A stretch of DNA of 64,000 nucleotides from Actinomycetota bacterium. GTDB taxonomy: Bacteria; Actinomycetota; Nitriliruptoria; Nitriliruptorales; JAHWKO01. The stretch covers positions 1 to 64,000 of the forward strand of contig JAHWKW010000004.1 of the NCBI GenBank assembly GCA_019347675.1, in the 5' to 3' direction. Positions 1-63,737 of the stretch are shown piece after piece. The position numbers and the translations under genes were made by a program. The first letter of the stretch is position 1; every line of letters starts with the position of its first letter. The notes below the pieces were generated by a model. It did no database searches, was not told the DNA's origin, and worked only from the letters and a program-made list of their open reading frames with translations.

Positions 1-520
1 TCCGCACCACCGGCACCCCATCACCATCGAACTCATAGGAGGAGAGCAGCTCACGCACCTCCAACTCCACCAACTCCAACAACTCCTCGTCATCGACCAT
101 GTCCGCCTTGTTCAACGCCACGATCAACCGCGGCACCCCCACCTGACGAGCCAACAACACATGCTCACGCGTCTGCGGCATCGGCCCATCCGCCGCGCTC
201 ACCACCAAAATCGCCCCATCCATCTGCGCCGCACCCGTAATCATGTTCTTCACATAATCCGCATGCCCCGGACAATCCACATGCGCGTAGTGACGGTTGT
301 CCGTCTCGTACTCCACATGCGACACCGAGATCGTGATCCCCCGCTCACGCTCCTCGGGCGCCTTATCGATCTGATCGAACGGCGTGAACTGCACGTTCGG
401 ATTCTGCTTGTGCAACACGTTGGTGATCGCCGCCGTCAACGTCGTCTTCCCATGATCGATATGCCCGATCGTGCCGATGTTCAGATGCGGCTTCGTCCGC
501 GCGAACTTCTCCTTGGCCAT
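1..520 (-). CDS. tuf: Elongation factor Tu, 5' part (runs off the window)
   Basis: EF-Tu is the GTPase that delivers aminoacyl-tRNA to the ribosome. The visible 173 residues begin [14 protein letters not shown] and carry the G-domain motifs: P-loop GHIDHGKT, the effector-loop Thr region, DCPGHADY and NKADMVDD. The P-loop has Ile where Val is usual. The ATG at 520 is preceded by AAGGAGAT, a strong ribosome binding site. The C-terminal part lies beyond base 1. The gene follows tRNA-Tyr, tRNA-Thr and tRNA-Met on the same strand, the tRNA-tuf arrangement known from other bacteria, often followed by rpmG-secE-nusG. Confidence 0.97.
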
Positions 521-55045: not shown

Positions 55046-55630
55046 TCATCCGCCGGAATGACCCAGGTGCTGCGCGATCAGCGCCCGGAGTTGGTCGGCC
55101 GTGACCGGCCCGGCGTGACGGTGGACGATCCTGCCGTCGCGGTCGACCAGCACCGTGGTGGGCATGCCGCGGGCTGCCACGGCCCGGTAGAAGCTGCCGT
55201 CGGCGTCGACGACCTGTTCGTAGGTCACCCCGGTCTGGCGGGCCAGCGTACGCGCCTTATCCAGATCGTCCTCCTTGTCGACGCCGACGAAGCGCACCTC
55301 GTCGCCGAGCTCACGGTGGACGGCCTCCAGATCCGGCATCTCCTCGACGCAGAACGCGCACCAGGTGGCCCAGAAGTTGATCAGGGCCGGCGCTCCGCGA
55401 AGCTCGGCGGTGTGCAGCTCGCCCGGCCGGTCCAGGCGCGGCAGGGTGGCGTCGGGGAGGCGCTGGCCGGGCTCCAGCGTGCCCAGCACCGGCACCGACG
55501 CGACGTCCGACACCTGCGTCTGCGGGCCGTCCCCGCAACCGGTGATGGCCACTGCGACCGCCAGGACGGACAGGATCAACGAGCGCACACCACGCCAACG
55601 CGGTGCCGCCCCCGACGGTTCCGGCCTCAT
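55046..55630 (-). CDS. TlpA-like thiol-disulfide lipoprotein (second)
   Basis: A 194-aa thioredoxin-fold lipoprotein. Signal with lipobox ITGC (Cys32); active site WCAFC (C91, C94), an unusual Phe in the CxxC; cis-Pro in GMPTTVLVDRDG. ATG overlaps the hemL stop as ATGA. It lies upstream of the bc cluster, so like 48987-49556 it may serve cytochrome c maturation; the two are not close duplicates. Confidence 0.88.
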   Translation of the reverse strand: MRPEPSGAAPRWRGVRSLILSVLAVAVAITGCGDGPQTQVSDVASVPVLGTLEPGQRLPDATLPRLDRPGELHTAELRGAPALINFWATWCAFCVEEMPDLEAVHRELGDEVRFVGVDKEDDLDKARTLARQTGVTYEQVVDADGSFYRAVAARGMPTTVLVDRDGRIVHRHAGPVTADQLRALIAQHLGHSGG

Positions 55631-56910
55631 CGCCCCGCCAGGTCCTCGGCGGCGTCCCTGGCCGCGTCCACCACGGCCCGGAGGGGCTCCCCGTCGTGCG
55701 CCAGCGACGGGAACAGGATCTCGTACCCCGACGGGGGGAGGTACACGCCGCGACGCAGCATCGCGTGGAAGAACCGTGCGTAGGCCGCGTGGTCGGCCTC
55801 ACGGGCGGTGGCGTGGTCGACGACCTTGGTCGGACCGAACGTCACGCCCGCCAGCGCCCCGACCTGCCCAACGTTCGCCACGACGCCGGCCGCGTCGAAC
55901 GCGCGCGCGAGTCCGCCGACCAGTGCCGTGGTCACCGCGCTGAGCCGGGTGAACGCGGCGTCGTCGAGGAGGCGCAGCTGCGCCAGGCCCGCCGCGACCG
56001 CAACCGGGTTCCCCGACAGCGTCCCCGCCTGGTACACGCGGCCTGCCGGGGCCAGCTCACCCATCACGTCGGCCCGACCGCCGAAGGCCGCCAGCGGCAG
56101 ACCGCCCCCGATCGCTTTGCCCAGGACGGTCAGGTCCGGGACGACGCCCGCCCACCGCTGCGCCCCGCCCCGCCCGAGCCGGAACCCGGTGATCACCTCG
56201 TCGAAGATCAGGAGCGCACCGGCCTGGTCGGCGCGGTCGCGCAGCGCCGCCAGGAAGCCGTCCACCGGGGGGACCAGCCCCATGTTGGCGGGGATCGGTT
56301 CGCAGATGATCGCGGCGACGTCGTCACCGGCCTCCTCCAGCGCCCGGTCGAGGCCGTCCAGGTCGTTCCACGCAGCGACGACCGTGTCGCCGGCCGCACC
56401 GGGCGTGACACCGGGAGACCCGGGGACACCGAGAGTGGCGACACCCGACCCCGCCTGGACCAGGACCGCGTCGCTGTGGCCGTGGTAGTGGCCCGCGAAC
56501 TTGATCACCACGCTGCGGCCGGTCACACCGCGTGCCAGCCGGACCGCGCTCATGACCGCCTCGGTCCCCGACGAGACCAGCCGGACCTGCTCCAGGGACG
56601 GCACGGCCGCGACCAGCTCCTCGGCGATCTCGACCTCCCCGCGGGTCGGGGCTCCGAACGTCGAGCCGCGTCGCAGCGCCGCCGCAGCCGCGGCGACCAC
56701 CTCCGGGTGGGCGTGCCCCAACGGCAGCGGCCCCCACGACTGCACCAGGTCGACGTAGCGGGCGCCGTCCTCGTCCCACACGTACGGGCCCTCACCACGG
56801 GTGAGGAACGGCGGCGTCCCCCCGACGGACCCGAAGGCGCGCACGGGCGAGTTCACGCCGCCGGGGATGACCCGCAGCGCGCGGGCGAACAGCTGCTCGG
56901 AGCGCTCCAT
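55627..56910 (-). CDS. hemL: Glutamate-1-semialdehyde 2,1-aminomutase
   Basis: A PLP enzyme that makes 5-aminolevulinate in the C5 heme pathway. 427 aa, the family norm; starts MERSEQLFARALRVIPGGVNSPVRAF. PLP Lys265 in VLGKAIGGG, Asp in FDEVITGFR. ATG 56910 chosen; a GTG at 56946 adds 12 residues, and neither has a clear ribosome binding site. It heads the unit leading into the bc cluster. Confidence 0.96.
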   Translation of the reverse strand: MERSEQLFARALRVIPGGVNSPVRAFGSVGGTPPFLTRGEGPYVWDEDGARYVDLVQSWGPLPLGHAHPEVVAAAAAALRRGSTFGAPTRGEVEIAEELVAAVPSLEQVRLVSSGTEAVMSAVRLARGVTGRSVVIKFAGHYHGHSDAVLVQAGSGVATLGVPGSPGVTPGAAGDTVVAAWNDLDGLDRALEEAGDDVAAIICEPIPANMGLVPPVDGFLAALRDRADQAGALLIFDEVITGFRLGRGGAQRWAGVVPDLTVLGKAIGGGLPLAAFGGRADVMGELAPAGRVYQAGTLSGNPVAVAAGLAQLRLLDDAAFTRLSAVTTALVGGLARAFDAAGVVANVGQVGALAGVTFGPTKVVDHATAREADHAAYARFFHAMLRRGVYLPPSGYEILFPSLAHDGEPLRAVVDAARDAAEDLAGR

Positions 56911-57019
56911 CGCCGGCGAGGCTAACCGGCGCGTCGGTGTCGGCACTGCGAGGCGGGCGCTACCGCCGGCGACGCGGCGTCACCTACCCTGCCGCCATCG
57001 CGACGGGGGAGGCCTGTCG

Positions 57020-58207
57020 GTGGTGGGGACCGCACGGGCGCTGTCGGCCGCGGTCGGTGCCGCCGTGGTCGGTGCCGCCGGTGCGGCCGGTTGGCGGTTC
57101 GCGGATCGCGTCCTGCAACCGCAACGGGCCCGCCGACCGGAGGACGACGCCGATCCGGAGGCGGCCGTGCGGGTGGTCGCGATCGGCGACGACACCGTCA
57201 CGCTCACCGGGCCGGCCGCGGGACGGCCCGGCCGGTGGGGGCTGTCGCTGGCACGCGGGTACGGGCAGGTCGGCCCCGGCGCGCCCGGCGACACCGACGG
57301 CGAGGTGGTCCGCCCGTTCCGGCGGCTGACCGGCGATCCCCGCCCCGGCGATGGCGTCCTGGACGCGCACGCCTGGCCGGCCGAGCCACGGGTCCTGCAC
57401 CTGCCCTGGGAGGACGTGACCTACCACTCCCCCGCCGGGCTGTTCCCGGCATGGCGGATCGACCCGGCGCCGTCGGCGGTGGCGACCGGTACCTGGGCGG
57501 TGGTGGTCCACGGGCGCGGCGGGCGTCGCACGGAGGGACTGCGCTACGTCCCGACGCTGGCTGCGCGGGGGTTGACCAGCCTCGTGATCAGCTACCGCAA
57601 CGACGCTGATGCGCCGCGCAGCGCCGATGGTCTGTCGCACCTGGGCGACACCGAGTGGCAGGACGTCGAGGGAGCCGTGGTCCACGCCCTGGCGCACGGA
57701 GCGCGTGATCTGCTGCTGGTCGGGTTCAGCATGGGCGGCACAGCGGTGCTGTCGTTCCTGCGGCGGTCGGCGCATGCGCAGGCGGTCAGCGGCGTCGTGC
57801 TCGAGGCGCCGGTGCTGCACTGGCCAGCGGTGCTGTGGCGCAGCGCGCAGCGTGCCGGCGTGCCGCGCCCGCTGCTGCCGGTCGTGGTACCCGCGACGAT
57901 CGCGACCTTGAGGGTGCGGGCCGGGATCGACTGGAGCGACCTGGACCACGCCGGCCACGCTGGCGACCTGCGTCATCCCCTGCTGCTGGTGCACGGCGCC
58001 GCGGACGACCACGTCCCGGTGGGGGCGAGCGACGCCCTCGCGCGGCGACGCCCCGACCTGGTGCGCTACGTCCGCGTCCCCCACGCCGGCCACGTGCAGT
58101 GCTGGAACGTCGACACGGGAGGGGTGGAGGCCGAGCTCGCGGGGTTCGTCTCCGAGTTGTCCACCGGCCGACGTCGACGTGCCCGCCGCTGGCGGGTCAG
58201 AACGTGA
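57020..58207 (+). CDS. Membrane-anchored alpha/beta hydrolase
   Basis: A 395-aa protein. N-terminal hydrophobic anchor (about 3-28) followed by a hydrolase domain: nucleophile GFSMGG, acid Asp in LVHGAADDHVP, His in PHAGHVQ. An about 110-residue region before the domain is of unknown fold. GTG 57020 follows GGGGGAGG. Its 3' end overlaps the end of the DsrE-like gene by 11 bases. Substrate unknown; not MenH-like in context. Confidence 0.82.
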   Translation: MVGTARALSAAVGAAVVGAAGAAGWRFADRVLQPQRARRPEDDADPEAAVRVVAIGDDTVTLTGPAAGRPGRWGLSLARGYGQVGPGAPGDTDGEVVRPFRRLTGDPRPGDGVLDAHAWPAEPRVLHLPWEDVTYHSPAGLFPAWRIDPAPSAVATGTWAVVVHGRGGRRTEGLRYVPTLAARGLTSLVISYRNDADAPRSADGLSHLGDTEWQDVEGAVVHALAHGARDLLLVGFSMGGTAVLSFLRRSAHAQAVSGVVLEAPVLHWPAVLWRSAQRAGVPRPLLPVVVPATIATLRVRAGIDWSDLDHAGHAGDLRHPLLLVHGAADDHVPVGASDALARRRPDLVRYVRVPHAGHVQCWNVDTGGVEAELAGFVSELSTGRRRRARRWRVRT

Positions 58208-58559
58208 GGACCCGGTCGTGGTCGGCGACCAGGCGCGCCACGTCCGGTGGGGACACCCAGGTGCCGTTGATCGCGGCGAGGTCGTCGTCGGTCACCGCAC
58301 GGGCGACGCCGCACGCCTTTCAGACGTAGACGGGAACGTCGTGCTCGACGAGCTTGGCGAACAGGTCGCGCAGCGCCGGGACCGCGACACCCTGTAGCTC
58401 CTCGCGCGTCCCCGGCCGCGCGAGGTCGGTGGCGTCACCCGCGAGGACCACGGAGACCTGCTGGCCCTCCTCCAGCGATCCGTTGGCGGCCAGATGCAGC
58501 GGCACGGACGCCCCGGTGGGGTCGCCCACGCCACGGTTGACGATGTACAGCACGTTCAC
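58197..58559 (-). CDS. Candidate selenocysteine-containing DsrE-like protein (in-frame TGA)
   Basis: DsrE/F-fold protein read as 120 aa with TGA (58320-58322) as Sec80. The first 79 residues are MNVLYIVNRGVGD...EHDVPVYV; after TGA the same frame runs 40 codons, KACGVARAVTDDDLAAINGT...DRVLTF, to a TGA at 58197. In DsrE-like relatives the position after VYV is a redox Cys, so the motif would be UxxC. A hairpin with SECIS geometry lies 12 nt after the TGA. GTG at 58559 sits 3 bases past hemB. If Sec is not inserted the product is 79 aa. Confidence 0.75.
58291..58307 (-). promoter_or_regulatory. Candidate bacterial SECIS hairpin
   Basis: On the mRNA, GUCGCC and GGUGAC form a 6-bp stem (one G-U) with loop CGUGC. 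The loop starts 18 nt after the UGA, and G is at loop position 2. This fits the described bacterial SECIS pattern (loop 16-37 nt after UGA, a G in the first two loop bases). The lower stem is not well paired. Confidence 0.55.
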
Positions 58560-58562
58560 AGC

Positions 58563-59555
58563 TCATCCCTCCTGCAGTGCCTGCGCCAGCTCACCGGCCG
58601 CGTAGGTCAGGACCAGGTCCGCGCCGGCGCGGCGGATCCCCACGACCGCCTCGTGCATGGCCCGCGCCCCGTCGATCCAGCCGCGGTCGGCCGCGGCCTT
58701 GATCATCGCGTACTCACCGGACACGTGGTAGGCGGCGACCGGCAGGTCGTAGCGCCCGCGGACGTCCGCGACGACATCGAGGTAGGGCAGCGCGGGCTTG
58801 ACCATCACCACGTCGGCGCCTTCGGCGACGTCGAGCGCGACCTCACGGCGAGCCTCTCGACGGTTGGCGGGCGGCTCCTGGTACGCGGAGCGGTCGCCGA
58901 ACGCCGGGGCGCTCTCGGCGGCGTCGCGGAAGGGTCCGTAGAACGCTGACGCGAACTTCGCGGCGTACGCCACGATGCCCACACGGGCGTGCCCGGCCGC
59001 GTCGAGCCCGTCGCGGATCGCCGCGACCTGCCCGTCCATCATCCCCGACGGGGCGACGAGATCGGCGCCGGCATCGGCCTGGGTCACCGCCTGGCGGACG
59101 TACCCGGCGACCGCCGCGTCGTTGTCGACCTGCCCGTCGGCGGTGAGCGGGCCGCAGTGGCCGTGGTCGGTGTACTGGCACAGGCAGGTGTCGGCCCACA
59201 GCACGACCTCGTCGCCGAGGTCGTCGCGCAACGCCCGCAGCGCTGCGTGGACGGGCCCGTTGCGATCCCAGCCGCCGGAGCCTTGCGCATCCTTGGCGGC
59301 GGGGACACCGAACAGGATGAAGCTGGAGACACCCAACGCGTGCAGCCGTTTCGCCTCGGCCCTGACGCTGTCGCGGGAGTGCTGCACGACCCCGGGCATC
59401 GTGTCGACCTCGACGGGCTGGTCGATGCCGTCCTTGACGAACACCGGGGCGACCAGATCCGCCGGGTGCAGACGGGTTTCGGTGAAGGCCCGGCGCAGGC
59501 CCCGGGTACGACGCATCCGGCGCAGGCGGACCGCGGGGAAGCCGGGGGAGGTCAT
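58563..59555 (-). CDS. hemB: Delta-aminolevulinic acid dehydratase (porphobilinogen synthase)
   Basis: Joins two ALA molecules into porphobilinogen. 330 aa; zinc-type cysteine site C124, C126, C134 in DTCLCQYTDHGHCG, Schiff-base Lys253 in MVKPALPYLD and Lys200 in AAKFASAFYGP. ATG at 59555, about 51 bases after hemD. The DsrE-like gene follows immediately. Confidence 0.97.
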   Translation of the reverse strand: MTSPGFPAVRLRRMRRTRGLRRAFTETRLHPADLVAPVFVKDGIDQPVEVDTMPGVVQHSRDSVRAEAKRLHALGVSSFILFGVPAAKDAQGSGGWDRNGPVHAALRALRDDLGDEVVLWADTCLCQYTDHGHCGPLTADGQVDNDAAVAGYVRQAVTQADAGADLVAPSGMMDGQVAAIRDGLDAAGHARVGIVAYAAKFASAFYGPFRDAAESAPAFGDRSAYQEPPANRREARREVALDVAEGADVVMVKPALPYLDVVADVRGRYDLPVAAYHVSGEYAMIKAAADRGWIDGARAMHEAVVGIRRAGADLVLTYAAGELAQALQEG

Positions 59556-59606: not shown

Positions 59607-60395
59607 TCACCGCGATCGTGACGAACGGACGGTCGTGGCCGCACGGATCAGCGCCTCGACCAGCCCGTCGATGTCGTGGCGATCGGCCTCCTCGGCGACC
59701 TCGATGCCGAGCTCGTGGCAGGTGGTCGACGTCACCGGCCCGATCGTGACGACGCGGGCGCGCCATGGCACGTCGCCTGCGAGCCGGACGAAGTTCCGCA
59801 CGGTGGATGACGACGTGAACGCCAGCAGGTCGATGTCCGCCGCGGCGAGCCGGTCGGCCACCCCAGGCGTCAGACGTTCCGGCGGGGCGGTGGTGTACGC
59901 GTCGACCGTGACGGGCTCGTAACCCCGGGCGCTCAGCACCCGCGGGAGGGTGTCCGACGCGATGTCGGCGCGGGGCAGCAGCACCCGTCCGGTTCCGGCG
60001 GCGAAGGCCTCACCGAGCGCTTCGGTGGTCGACGTGTCGGGCACGAGATCGGGTTCGATGCCCAGCTGCTCGCGGAGCGCGGCGGCGGTGCCGGGTCCGA
60101 CCGCGGCCACACGCACACCGGTCAGGACCCCGCGGCCCAGCCGTGCCTCCTCGATGACGGCGGCGACCGCGGCAACGCCGTTGGGTGAGGTGAAGCACAC
60201 GGCGACGAAGCGTTGGGCACCCACCTGACGCAGCGCATCCAGCAGCGCGGTGCGGTCGCCTGGCCGGATCACGATCGTCGGGGCCTCCACCGGCTCACCA
60301 CCCAACCCCCGGATCCGGGCCGACAGCTCACCGGCCTGCGCGGGTGCGCGCGTCACCAGGACCGACACGCCAGCCAGCGGTCCATCGCCGGTCAT
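59607..60395 (-). CDS. hemD: Uroporphyrinogen-III synthase
   Basis: Closes hydroxymethylbilane to uroporphyrinogen III. 262 aa with the loose family features VLVTRAPAQAGELSARIRGLGGEP, FTSPNGVAAV, the AVGPGTAAAL hinge and FTSSSTVRNFVRLAG. ATG overlaps the hemC stop as ATGA. The weakly conserved sequence is supported by its place between hemC and hemB. Confidence 0.92.
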   Translation of the reverse strand: MTGDGPLAGVSVLVTRAPAQAGELSARIRGLGGEPVEAPTIVIRPGDRTALLDALRQVGAQRFVAVCFTSPNGVAAVAAVIEEARLGRGVLTGVRVAAVGPGTAAALREQLGIEPDLVPDTSTTEALGEAFAAGTGRVLLPRADIASDTLPRVLSARGYEPVTVDAYTTAPPERLTPGVADRLAAADIDLLAFTSSSTVRNFVRLAGDVPWRARVVTIGPVTSTTCHELGIEVAEEADRHDIDGLVEALIRAATTVRSSRSR

Positions 60396-61339
60396 GGTCC
60401 GCCCATCGGCACACGGCGCCGGGCGGCTGCCAGCCGCGTCAGGACCGCATCACCGCCCCGGTCGCGCAACATGTCGGCCACGGCGGCGGCGAGCTCGTCG
60501 GCGGCGTCGCGCGCGGCGCGGTGGCTGGCGCGCAGCAGCGTCGTTCCCGTCGGATCGGCGAGCATGCCCAGCAGCTCCAGTCCGTCGGCGGTGAGCTCGG
60601 CATGCGCCCCGATCGGGGCGGTGCAGCCCCCGTCGAGTGCGGCCAGCAGAGCACGCTCCGCTCGGACGGCGAGCCGGGCGTCGTGGTCGTCGACGAGCGC
60701 CAGCGCGGCACGCGTGTCGGGGTCGTCGTCGCGACACTCGATCGCCAGCGCTCCCTGCGCCGGAGCGTGCAGACACTCGCCGTGCTCGAGCGCCACCGCC
60801 TGGACGTCGAGTTGGACCGGCCCGAGGCGACGCACGCCCGCGACGGCGACCACGACGGCGTCGAGGTCGCCGTCCGCGACGCGCCGCAGGCGCGTGTCGA
60901 GGTTGCCGCGGAGTGGCTGGACGATGACGTCTCGGCGGGCGCGCTGCACCTGTGCCTGCCGACGAGCGCTGGACGTCCCGACCGTGGCGCCGCGGCGGAG
61001 CGTTGACAGCCGCACCCCGCCCCGTGTGACCAGCAGGTCACGGGGGTCCTCACGTCGGGGCACCGCCGCGACCACCAGGCCGTGTGCGGTGGCGGTCGGC
61101 AGGTCCTTGTAGGAGTGCACCGCGCAATCGGCGTGTGCGTCGAGGACGGCCCGGCGGACCCCGTCGACGAACAGCCCCTTGGCGTCGAACGCCTCCACCG
61201 CCCGGTCGGGGTGCTCGTCGCCGGTGGTGGACAGGGCCACCAGCTCGGCGGGTCGGCCGGTGGCGGCGGCCAGCGCATCGGCGACCTGCTGCGCCTGGGC
61301 GCGGGCGAGGGCGCTGCGACGCGTCGCGATGCGCCACAT
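60392..61339 (-). CDS. hemC: Porphobilinogen deaminase
   Basis: Builds hydroxymethylbilane from four porphobilinogens. 315 aa; starts MWRIATRRSALARAQAQ, has HSYKDLPTA, PLRGNLDTRLRR and the dipyrromethane cofactor Cys239 in DGGCTAPIG. ATG at 61339; the longer upstream frame overlaps hemA and is rejected. Lies 7 bases after hemA. Confidence 0.96.
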   Translation of the reverse strand: MWRIATRRSALARAQAQQVADALAAATGRPAELVALSTTGDEHPDRAVEAFDAKGLFVDGVRRAVLDAHADCAVHSYKDLPTATAHGLVVAAVPRREDPRDLLVTRGGVRLSTLRRGATVGTSSARRQAQVQRARRDVIVQPLRGNLDTRLRRVADGDLDAVVVAVAGVRRLGPVQLDVQAVALEHGECLHAPAQGALAIECRDDDPDTRAALALVDDHDARLAVRAERALLAALDGGCTAPIGAHAELTADGLELLGMLADPTGTTLLRASHRAARDAADELAAAVADMLRDRGGDAVLTRLAAARRRVPMGGP

Positions 61340-61346
61340 CGGCGCG

Positions 61347-62603
61347 CTACTCGTCGAGGTCGAACAGCTCGCGCAACGCGATCGCGTAGTGCTCGGCACC
61401 GCCGCGATCAGCGAGCGCCTTCAAGCGGACGGTGGGATCGTGCAGCAACGTGTTGACGATGCCGTGGGTGAGCGCCTCCACGGCCTCACGCTGGCGCTCG
61501 TCGAGACCCGCGAGCCGGCTGGACAGCCGTCCGAGCTCGCCGTTGCGCACCTGCTCCGCCCGCTGGCGTAGCGCCCGGATGGTCGGTTCGATCCGCACAG
61601 CCTGGAGCCAGGCGCGGAAGCGGGCGGCCTCGTCGGAGACGATCGCGCTCGCTTCCAGGACGACGTCGCCGGTGACCGACCGGTCGGCCACCTCGCGGAT
61701 CGTCTCCAGGTCGATCAGCGTCACCCCGGCCAGGTCACCGCAGAGCGGGTCGACGTTGCGTGGCATGGCCAGGTCGACGACGACCAGCGGGCGGTCACGG
61801 CCCTCGACCGCCGCGCCGACGAGGTCCGCGTCGAGCAGGTGCGCGGACGCACCGGTGCAGCACACGACGACGTCGGCCGCGGCGACCGCCTGGCGCAGGC
61901 CGCCATCGCCGACGACCTCGCCGCCGACGCGACGGGCGAGTCGGTCGGCGCGCTCGGCGGTGCGGTTGCGCACGAGGATGCAGCCCGCCCGGTCGCGGAC
62001 GAGCCGTTCGGCGGTCAGCGACCCGATCGTCCCGGCACCGACCAGCAGGACCGTGCGGTCAGCGAGCGATCCTGCACAGTCGGCGGCCGCGTCGAGGCCG
62101 ACGTCGACCAGCGACGACACGCCCTGGGTGATGTCGGTCTCGCCGCGGACCCGCCGCGACACGTACAGCGCCTGGTCGAACAAACGCTGCAGCACGCGTC
62201 GGGCCGCGCCCTCGTCCTTGGCGGCCTTGGCGGCCTCACGCACCTGGACGGCGATCTGCTGCTCGCCCACCACCAGTGAGTCCAGACCGGACGCGACCGC
62301 GAACAGGTGCTCGGCGGCCCGCTCGTCGTAGTGGCCGTAGTGGACGCCGTCGAGGTCGGTCATCGCCAGGTCGCCGCGGGCCGCGAGCCAGCTGAGCAGC
62401 TCCGCCAGGCCGTCGTGGAAGCGGCTGACGTGCGCGTACACCTCGACCCGGTTGCAGGTCGACAGCACGGTCGCTTCGACGACGTGCTCGAGGGCGGTCA
62501 GCGACCGCAGCGCCTTGGGGAGCTCGTCGGCTGGCACGGCGACACGCTCGAGCAGCCCGAAGTCGGTGCTGCGGTGGTTCATCCCGAGGACGAGGAGCGA
62601 CAC
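61347..62603 (-). CDS. hemA: Glutamyl-tRNA reductase
   Basis: First committed step of C5 heme synthesis, Glu-tRNA to glutamate-1-semialdehyde. 418 aa; catalytic Cys50 in LSTCNRVEVY, GEQQIAVQVREA, the NADPH site VLLVGAGTIGSL and a C-terminal dimer helix. GTG 62603. Follows rex by about 62 bases, as in other actinobacteria, where Rex can control the operon. Confidence 0.97.
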   Translation of the reverse strand: MSLLVLGMNHRSTDFGLLERVAVPADELPKALRSLTALEHVVEATVLSTCNRVEVYAHVSRFHDGLAELLSWLAARGDLAMTDLDGVHYGHYDERAAEHLFAVASGLDSLVVGEQQIAVQVREAAKAAKDEGAARRVLQRLFDQALYVSRRVRGETDITQGVSSLVDVGLDAAADCAGSLADRTVLLVGAGTIGSLTAERLVRDRAGCILVRNRTAERADRLARRVGGEVVGDGGLRQAVAAADVVVCCTGASAHLLDADLVGAAVEGRDRPLVVVDLAMPRNVDPLCGDLAGVTLIDLETIREVADRSVTGDVVLEASAIVSDEAARFRAWLQAVRIEPTIRALRQRAEQVRNGELGRLSSRLAGLDERQREAVEALTHGIVNTLLHDPTVRLKALADRGGAEHYAIALRELFDLDE

Positions 62604-62665: not shown

Positions 62666-63352
62666 TCAGCCTGGCTGGCCGGCGCGGGGCGCGATGCAGA
62701 GGCCTGGCGGGCGCGCGGGTGTGCGGCGCTGCTGCTCGTGGTACGCGAGGATCTGCAGCTCGGTCGAGACGTCCACCTTCCGCACCCGCACCCCAGCGGG
62801 GACCTCGAGGCGGGTCGGGGCGAAGTTCAGGATCGAGGTGACGCCTGCGGCCGTGAGGCGGTCGGCGACCTCCTGGGCGTGCTCGCCGGGAACCGCGAGC
62901 ACCGCGATGGCGACGCCCTGCCGGGCAACGATGAGCTCCAGGTCGTCGAGCGGTGCGACGCGGTGACCGGCGACCTCCCCGCCGACCTGTGCCGGGTCGG
63001 CATCGAACAGTGCGACGAACTCGAAGCCTCTTTCGGCGAACCCGCCGTAGCTGGCGAGCGCACGCCCGAGGTTGCCGACGCCCACGAGCACGACGGGCCA
63101 GTCCCGGTCGAGGCCGAGGACCTCTCCGATGTGGTCGAGGAGGTCACGGACCGGGTAGCCGACCCCGCGCGTGCCGTAGGTGCCCAGGAAGGACAGGTCC
63201 TTGCGGACCTGGGCGGACGTGACCCCGGCCGCCTGCGCCAACCCGTCGCTGGACACCGTCCGGGTGCCGGTGTCGGACAGCTCCAGGAGGATCGCCAGGT
63301 AGGTCGGCAGCCGGCTGACGGTCGCTTCGGGGACACGACGGTCGCCGTTCAC
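62666..63352 (-). CDS. rex: Redox-sensing transcriptional repressor Rex
   Basis: NADH/NAD+-sensing repressor of respiratory and heme genes. About 228 aa: winged helix with RLPTYLAILLEL and AAGVTSAQVRKDLSFLGTYGTRGVGY, then a Rossmann domain with VVLVGVGNLGRALASYGGF. GTG at 63352 chosen because it puts a normal N-terminus on the winged helix; the frame stays open upstream with low-complexity Gly/Ala and no ribosome binding site. Confidence 0.94.
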   Translation of the reverse strand: MNGDRRVPEATVSRLPTYLAILLELSDTGTRTVSSDGLAQAAGVTSAQVRKDLSFLGTYGTRGVGYPVRDLLDHIGEVLGLDRDWPVVLVGVGNLGRALASYGGFAERGFEFVALFDADPAQVGGEVAGHRVAPLDDLELIVARQGVAIAVLAVPGEHAQEVADRLTAAGVTSILNFAPTRLEVPAGVRVRKVDVSTELQILAYHEQQRRTPARPPGLCIAPRAGQPG

Positions 63353-63434
63353 GGTCGCTGCCGCCACCGGCTCGCCGCGAGCGCCGCCGCCCCCGCCGGT
63401 CCGCTGCCCTGGTGAGCGCTCACCGCGTCCGGTG

Positions 63435-63737
63435 TCACGCCCGTCGCCACTCGGCCCACCGGCCGCGGCGGGCGTGGCGGATGGCCTGGCGGACCACACC
63501 CGGCTCCAGGCGCCCCTCGGCCACCTCGCGGCCGTCGACCACCACGACGGGGACCCGGATGTCGTACCGGGCCTGCAGCTCAGGATCCTGGTCGATGTCG
63601 ATCAGACGGACGATCGCGCCGCGGGCTTCCGCCGCGGCGCGATCCTCGGCCTCCTCGCACAACCGGCACCCCTCGCGGGTGTAGACCTCCACCGTGACGC
63701 GGCGGCGGCGCCTTCCCGATCCCAGCGTCAACGTCAT
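63435..63737 (-). CDS. Glutaredoxin-like thiol protein
   Basis: A 100-aa protein of the glutaredoxin/DUF836 type. EVYTREGCRLCEEAED holds the CxxC (C24, C27), with cis-Pro in RVPVVVVDG. ATG at 63737, 19 bases after the next gene upstream; GGAGAG precedes it. Located just before rex. Confidence 0.85.
   Translation of the reverse strand: MTLTLGSGRRRRRVTVEVYTREGCRLCEEAEDRAAAEARGAIVRLIDIDQDPELQARYDIRVPVVVVDGREVAEGRLEPGVVRQAIRHARRGRWAEWRRA

Follow-up and report, generated by a model that had tools for sequence, protein, structure and literature searches.

Does the UGA inside a short dsrE-like reading frame, encoded directly after hemB, end the protein or is it read as selenocysteine (Sec)? The frame lies in the window, by which is meant the whole 64,000-nucleotide stretch of DNA analysed, namely the opening 64 kb of a contig of 177 kb in the 3.49 Mb draft genome of an actinomycete (96.7% complete, 2.6% contamination). 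An original prediction, made from the sequence alone, had proposed functional Sec insertion here. The best overall explanation, to which we give a probability of about 0.93, is that of a 120-residue DsrE-fold selenoprotein with Sec at residue 80, its insertion directed by a hairpin just downstream of the UGA.

Reading frame and gene context

The gene (58197-58559, minus strand) begins with a GTG at 58559, reaches the in-frame TGA at 58320-58322 (minus strand, codon 80), stays open for 40 more sense codons and stops at a TGA (58199-58197). Residues around the UGA read PVYV-U-KACG, giving V-U-x-x-C, and the Cys83 codon (58311-58313, minus strand) would supply the cysteine that is presumed to act as the resolving residue of UxxC. 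Start, UGA and end fall where the original prediction had placed them, as does the UxxC context of a TGA following VPVYV and preceding KACG. Its view that the stretch past the UGA is protein-like also stands, given that GC at the three codon positions is 0.82/0.41/0.91 before the UGA and 0.75/0.50/0.95 after it, versus 0.75/0.88/0.60 beyond the real stop, so that coding character runs on through the UGA and vanishes only past the real end of the gene.

The placement directly after hemB is equally plain: hemB (delta-aminolevulinic acid dehydratase, 58563-59555, minus strand, Pfam ALAD 1.2e-133) has its stop at 58565-58563, the GTG at 58559 lies 3 nt past it, and a Shine-Dalgarno-like AGGAGGG is seen in the sequence within the hemB 3' end (58567-58573, minus strand). 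Upstream of hemB are hemD, hemC and hemA (59607-62603, minus strand), and the gene order by Pfam is glutaredoxin-like, rex, hemA, hemC, hemD, hemB and then the dsrE-like gene. The last two are probably on one transcript, and the dsrE-like gene and the heme biosynthesis operon are probably co-translated, perhaps by position alone. The association with hemB is local only, and in a neighbour survey by simple ORF picking none of the relatives shares it. The glutaredoxin-like gene (63435-63737) and rex (62666-63499), both on the minus strand, are redox genes upstream of hemA. Downstream of the heme genes a TlpA-like thioredoxin lies beside a class-III aminotransferase, probably hemL (55046-56946, minus strand), and an alpha/beta hydrolase frame on the plus strand (56801-58207) meets the end of the dsrE-like gene tail to tail with an 11-nt overlap.

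Homologues and fold of the product

When a residue is put in for the UGA, residues 3-120 of the product match Pfam DsrE (PF02635; 2.8e-15), that is across the UGA, at 57-59 bits against a gathering cut-off of 22.7, and all 63 of 63 aligned members match the same family. A protein search of 150 related genomes found homologues in 11 others of the phylum, 32-52% identical to the window protein, whose sole internal stop is a TGA at the same codon (12/12 homology-found members with the window included); TAA or TAG at the Sec codon was seen in none of the 11. More distant homologues, among them L040, L041 and L044, have Cys in that column (WLCSACAxKRG). Val79, Sec/Cys80, Cys83, Ala86 and Arg87 are invariant among the 63 aligned members, Cys83 being invariant across the alignments. 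A DsrE group of the same phylum (L038, L039, L042 and L045) carries the motif SGxSSKARG, with Ser replacing both redox residues of UxxC.

The AlphaFold model of the window protein (mean pLDDT 98.1) has the DsrE/YchN/TusD fold, in which Sec80 closes strand 77-80 and the adjoining helix comprises residues 81-86; among solved structures it most resembles YchN, DsrE of DsrEFH, an archaeal DsrE-like protein and TusD.

Were the UGA a true stop, the gene would make a 79-residue truncated protein or be a decaying pseudogene. UGA ends both hemB and the dsrE-like gene itself and so is an ordinary stop in the same genome, but against termination here the homology reaches the C-terminus in all relatives and TGA is the only stop found at the codon. 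Alignment of relatives, which had been suggested as a check, thus finds TGA (or Cys) kept at this position and homology continuing past it.

The hairpin after the UGA

The putative bSECIS hairpin (58291-58307, minus strand) has the sequence GUCGCC-CGUGC-GGUGAC, with a 6-bp stem of 58307-58302 paired to 58296-58291 and a CGUGC loop (58301-58297) that starts 18 nt past the UGA and has G at its second position, followed by U. All these features had been proposed at the outset and all hold, the element moreover being conserved and covarying. The bSECIS model describes loops of 3-9 nt, stems of 4-16 bp, a spacing of 16-37 nt from the UGA and an energy of at most -7.5 kcal/mol, with G in the first two loop positions, often then G or U (PMC13188914). 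A 43-nt element here lies within every one of these bounds (5-nt loop, 6 bp, 18 nt, -14.5 kcal/mol including a lower stem), while a 19-nt piece with 5/6 pairs reaches only -5.0 kcal/mol. The folding expected earlier stands for the 43-nt segment, which folds into exactly this hairpin, and not for a 61-nt context, where the minimum-energy fold differs. Folding energy compared with shuffles was not above chance (z ~0), and was rejected as evidence.

The case for the hairpin is carried by comparison across relatives. For the 12 homology-found sequences RNAalifold returned exactly the 6-bp stem, three pairs of which have changed on both sides, and counts on the named structure agree. A larger set came from a search with the pattern GTNTGARRNNNNTGYNNNNNNGCCCGTGSGG, and because that pattern fixes part of the loop only the three pairs free of it were counted for covariation; among the matches listed these are standard in 85% of cells, versus 55% on shuffling (maximum 64%) and 32-64% when slid. 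At pair 21-33, 38 distinct rows have G-C and 27 have C-G, again among the matches listed. At the codons of the loop the homology-found set has GCC in 11/11, CGT in 10/11 and GGG or GCG in 11/11 (third base G), and since the protein sequence does not require such frozen third bases they lend support to the hairpin. A covariance model built without the window matches it at 58283-58325 (53.3 bits, E 1.8e-9; next best 10 bits), and on the whole genome this is the sole match, so that no other gene with the same hairpin was found by that search. A covarying hairpin with frozen wobble bases following the UGA sits badly with a true stop, a reading which we consider very improbable.

Selenocysteine would instead be inserted by SelB carrying Sec-tRNA-Sec, which on this model recognises the CGUG loop of the hairpin just past the UGA, and would go in at residue 80, where the strand ends and the helix starts, three residues before Cys83; this placement is strongly supported.

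Selenocysteine machinery

The search for sel genes advised at the outset found the full set in the genome. The tRNA-Sec (selC) scores 77 bits, above the Rfam cut-off, and ARAGORN confirms it as tRNA-SeC; selA (1.2e-149) adjoins selB (2.0e-74) on contig 16; and there are two selD genes, each with one TGA at the canonical Sec site SHGAG-U-ACK. These selD copies lie at C43:1054-1977 (L021) and C37:15553-16485 (L022), the latter with a gene for cysteine synthase close by; for one genome to have two selD genes of the Sec type seems unusual, and one may come from a mis-binned contig. A selB-profile match in the window (26-481), considered as a second selB, was rejected as EF-Tu.

The UGA might also be read as some other amino acid (Trp, Cys or another, by readthrough or a changed code), as would be compatible with the open frame past it and with the Cys that distant homologues have in the column. 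Set against this are the full Sec machinery, a selD with UGA at its canonical Sec place, a gene that itself ends in UGA and a hairpin that fits the bSECIS model, and the proposal is scarcely credible.

Among genomes with the TGA form, selA, selB and tRNA-Sec occur together in 10/12, and all three are absent from the drafts of the remaining two, G131 and G074. These two relatives, with the gene frameshifted in one, speak for a true stop. In G074 the Sec DsrE gene (L031, C79:27069-27414) is interrupted by a shift of frame, consistent either with decay once the Sec system had been lost or with an error of assembly. A genome with the Cys form, G013, is likewise without the Sec system. Enrichment of selA in TGA-form genomes is not significant (Fisher p 0.34) because selA is common throughout the sample, and this co-occurrence is not relied on as evidence. 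Taken from sequence analysis, with the sel genes, the TGA in relatives and the covarying hairpin all in its favour, the insertion of Sec at residue 80 that was originally predicted appears very nearly certain.

Occurrence across bacteria

For the named genomes a protein scan gave no match, and so a DNA pattern scan for GTNTGARRNNNNTGYNNNNNNGCCCGTGSGG was used, the DsrE frames at pattern sites being scored with a profile from the alignment of related-genome homologues. The pattern occurs once in the window and not at all across 100 shuffles. In 80 fetched loci of the named genomes there are at least 81 such sites, 78 of the 81 in DsrE frames homologous on both sides. The pattern matches listed come from Actinomycetota, Chloroflexota, Acidobacteriota, Rokubacteria, Planctomycetota, Poribacteria, Dormiibacterota, Desulfobacterales and other Deltaproteobacteria, and many of the carriers are from soil and groundwater. 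That the same gene with the same signal recurs across many bacterial phyla argues for a real selenoprotein.

On a tree of 80 proteins, many forks of which are unresolved because the protein is short, the window sequence falls in an all-TGA set of 13, mostly from Actinomycetota (99/96 support), and TGA versus non-TGA labels need three changes compared with 15.7 when shuffled. One actinomycetotal locus (L090) has two Sec DsrE copies (96-126 and 2364-2394), one in a much shorter frame, as a duplication.

Proposed function

As for what the protein does, we infer from its fold and from the neighbours of its relatives that it may carry sulfur or selenium. In ten related loci the gene is immediately preceded, on its own strand, by one for TusA (of the 12 matching rows, two are the same record), one of these upstream genes matching Pfam TusA at 1.2e-16, and in one related locus a rhodanese-like frame is found further upstream of TusA. 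The window gene's own neighbours are heme genes and not tusA, a TusA match being found on the same contig at a distance of 44 kb. In Metallosphaera, thiosulfate passes between DsrE3A and TusA (PMC4175335), and YedF, a SirA/TusA-DsrE fusion with a redox CGxC motif, is linked to selenium genes (PMC5322559).

In the proposed mechanism the Sec selenolate would take over the job of the active-site cysteine of DsrE/TusD/YchN, either accepting sulfane sulfur (or selenium) or reducing such species, Cys83 would resolve the Sec-bound species, and the sulfur could then be passed on to a carrier such as TusA. It is because of the fold, the Cys of YchN, the upstream TusA, the DsrE3A-TusA exchange and YedF that a carrier with Sec in place of the active Cys is favoured, and to a sulfur-transfer role for the Sec80 protein we would give about even odds.

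A selenoprotein of another sort, namely a thiol-disulfide oxidoreductase or a redox protein handling peroxide, selenite or metals rather than transferring sulfur, is a serious possibility though a somewhat less probable one. UxxC is a redox motif, the glutaredoxin-like gene and rex stand upstream in the window operon, and methyltransferase or DUF1326-like genes lie near some relatives. On the other side, characterised DsrE-fold proteins carry sulfur on the equivalent Cys (PMC4175335), and among the loci checked it is TusA that recurs as the partner directly upstream.

Comparison with known systems

DsrE-like selenoproteins with UxxC have been known since 2005. They were predicted earlier from the Sargasso Sea (2 sequences), from GOS (DsrE 1 and DsrE 2) and from Desulfovibrio vulgaris, and reviews of 2022 and 2026 list them. 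The Sargasso Sea and GOS papers agree with the earlier remark that such proteins had been predicted in marine metagenomes. The published examples (WP_014524487.1 included) likewise have Pfam02635, UxxC and a bacterial SECIS (PMC1088965, PMC2398784, PMC1794560, PMC13188914), the comparison covering family, motif and SECIS. Those papers list between one and about 20 sequences, their sources being sea water and a single deltaproteobacterium; the present set is drawn from Actinomycetota, Chloroflexota, Acidobacteriota and Rokubacteria, among others. The kind is thus already known, though little studied, and what is new is the wide occurrence on land and in the subsurface, the covariation, the TusA link and the structure.

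Amongst characterised proteins, E. coli YchN (1jx7) and DsrE/TusD of DsrEFH/TusBCD share the fold (query TM-score 0.76-0.78) at about 20% identity; by profile alignment the YchN residue that corresponds to Sec is a Cys, in the motif LCKTC, in contrast to the Sec of the present protein. Neither tusB/tusC nor dsrF/dsrH was found beside the gene, among the Pfam-identified neighbours in the window or in the survey of relatives by simple ORF picking. With YedF the pairing of TusA and DsrE is shared, but here the genes are separate, Sec is in the motif and the DsrE domain stands alone, the YedF model giving a weak match in 2/63 members. No curated NCBIfam model covers the group, which probably leads annotation pipelines to end the protein at the UGA.

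Tentatively, at a little under even odds, the group may form an extensive branch of DsrE proteins, found in soil and subsurface bacteria of at least eight phyla, with Sec as its normal active-site residue; absent from curated models and so probably annotated in truncated form, it would act together with TusA in a sulfur relay based on selenium. The family, hitherto represented by a few marine reads and a single deltaproteobacterium, now has at least some 90 sequences, a SECIS that covaries, a structure modelled with confidence and, in TusA, a candidate partner, which makes it possible to test what selenium does in sulfur trafficking.
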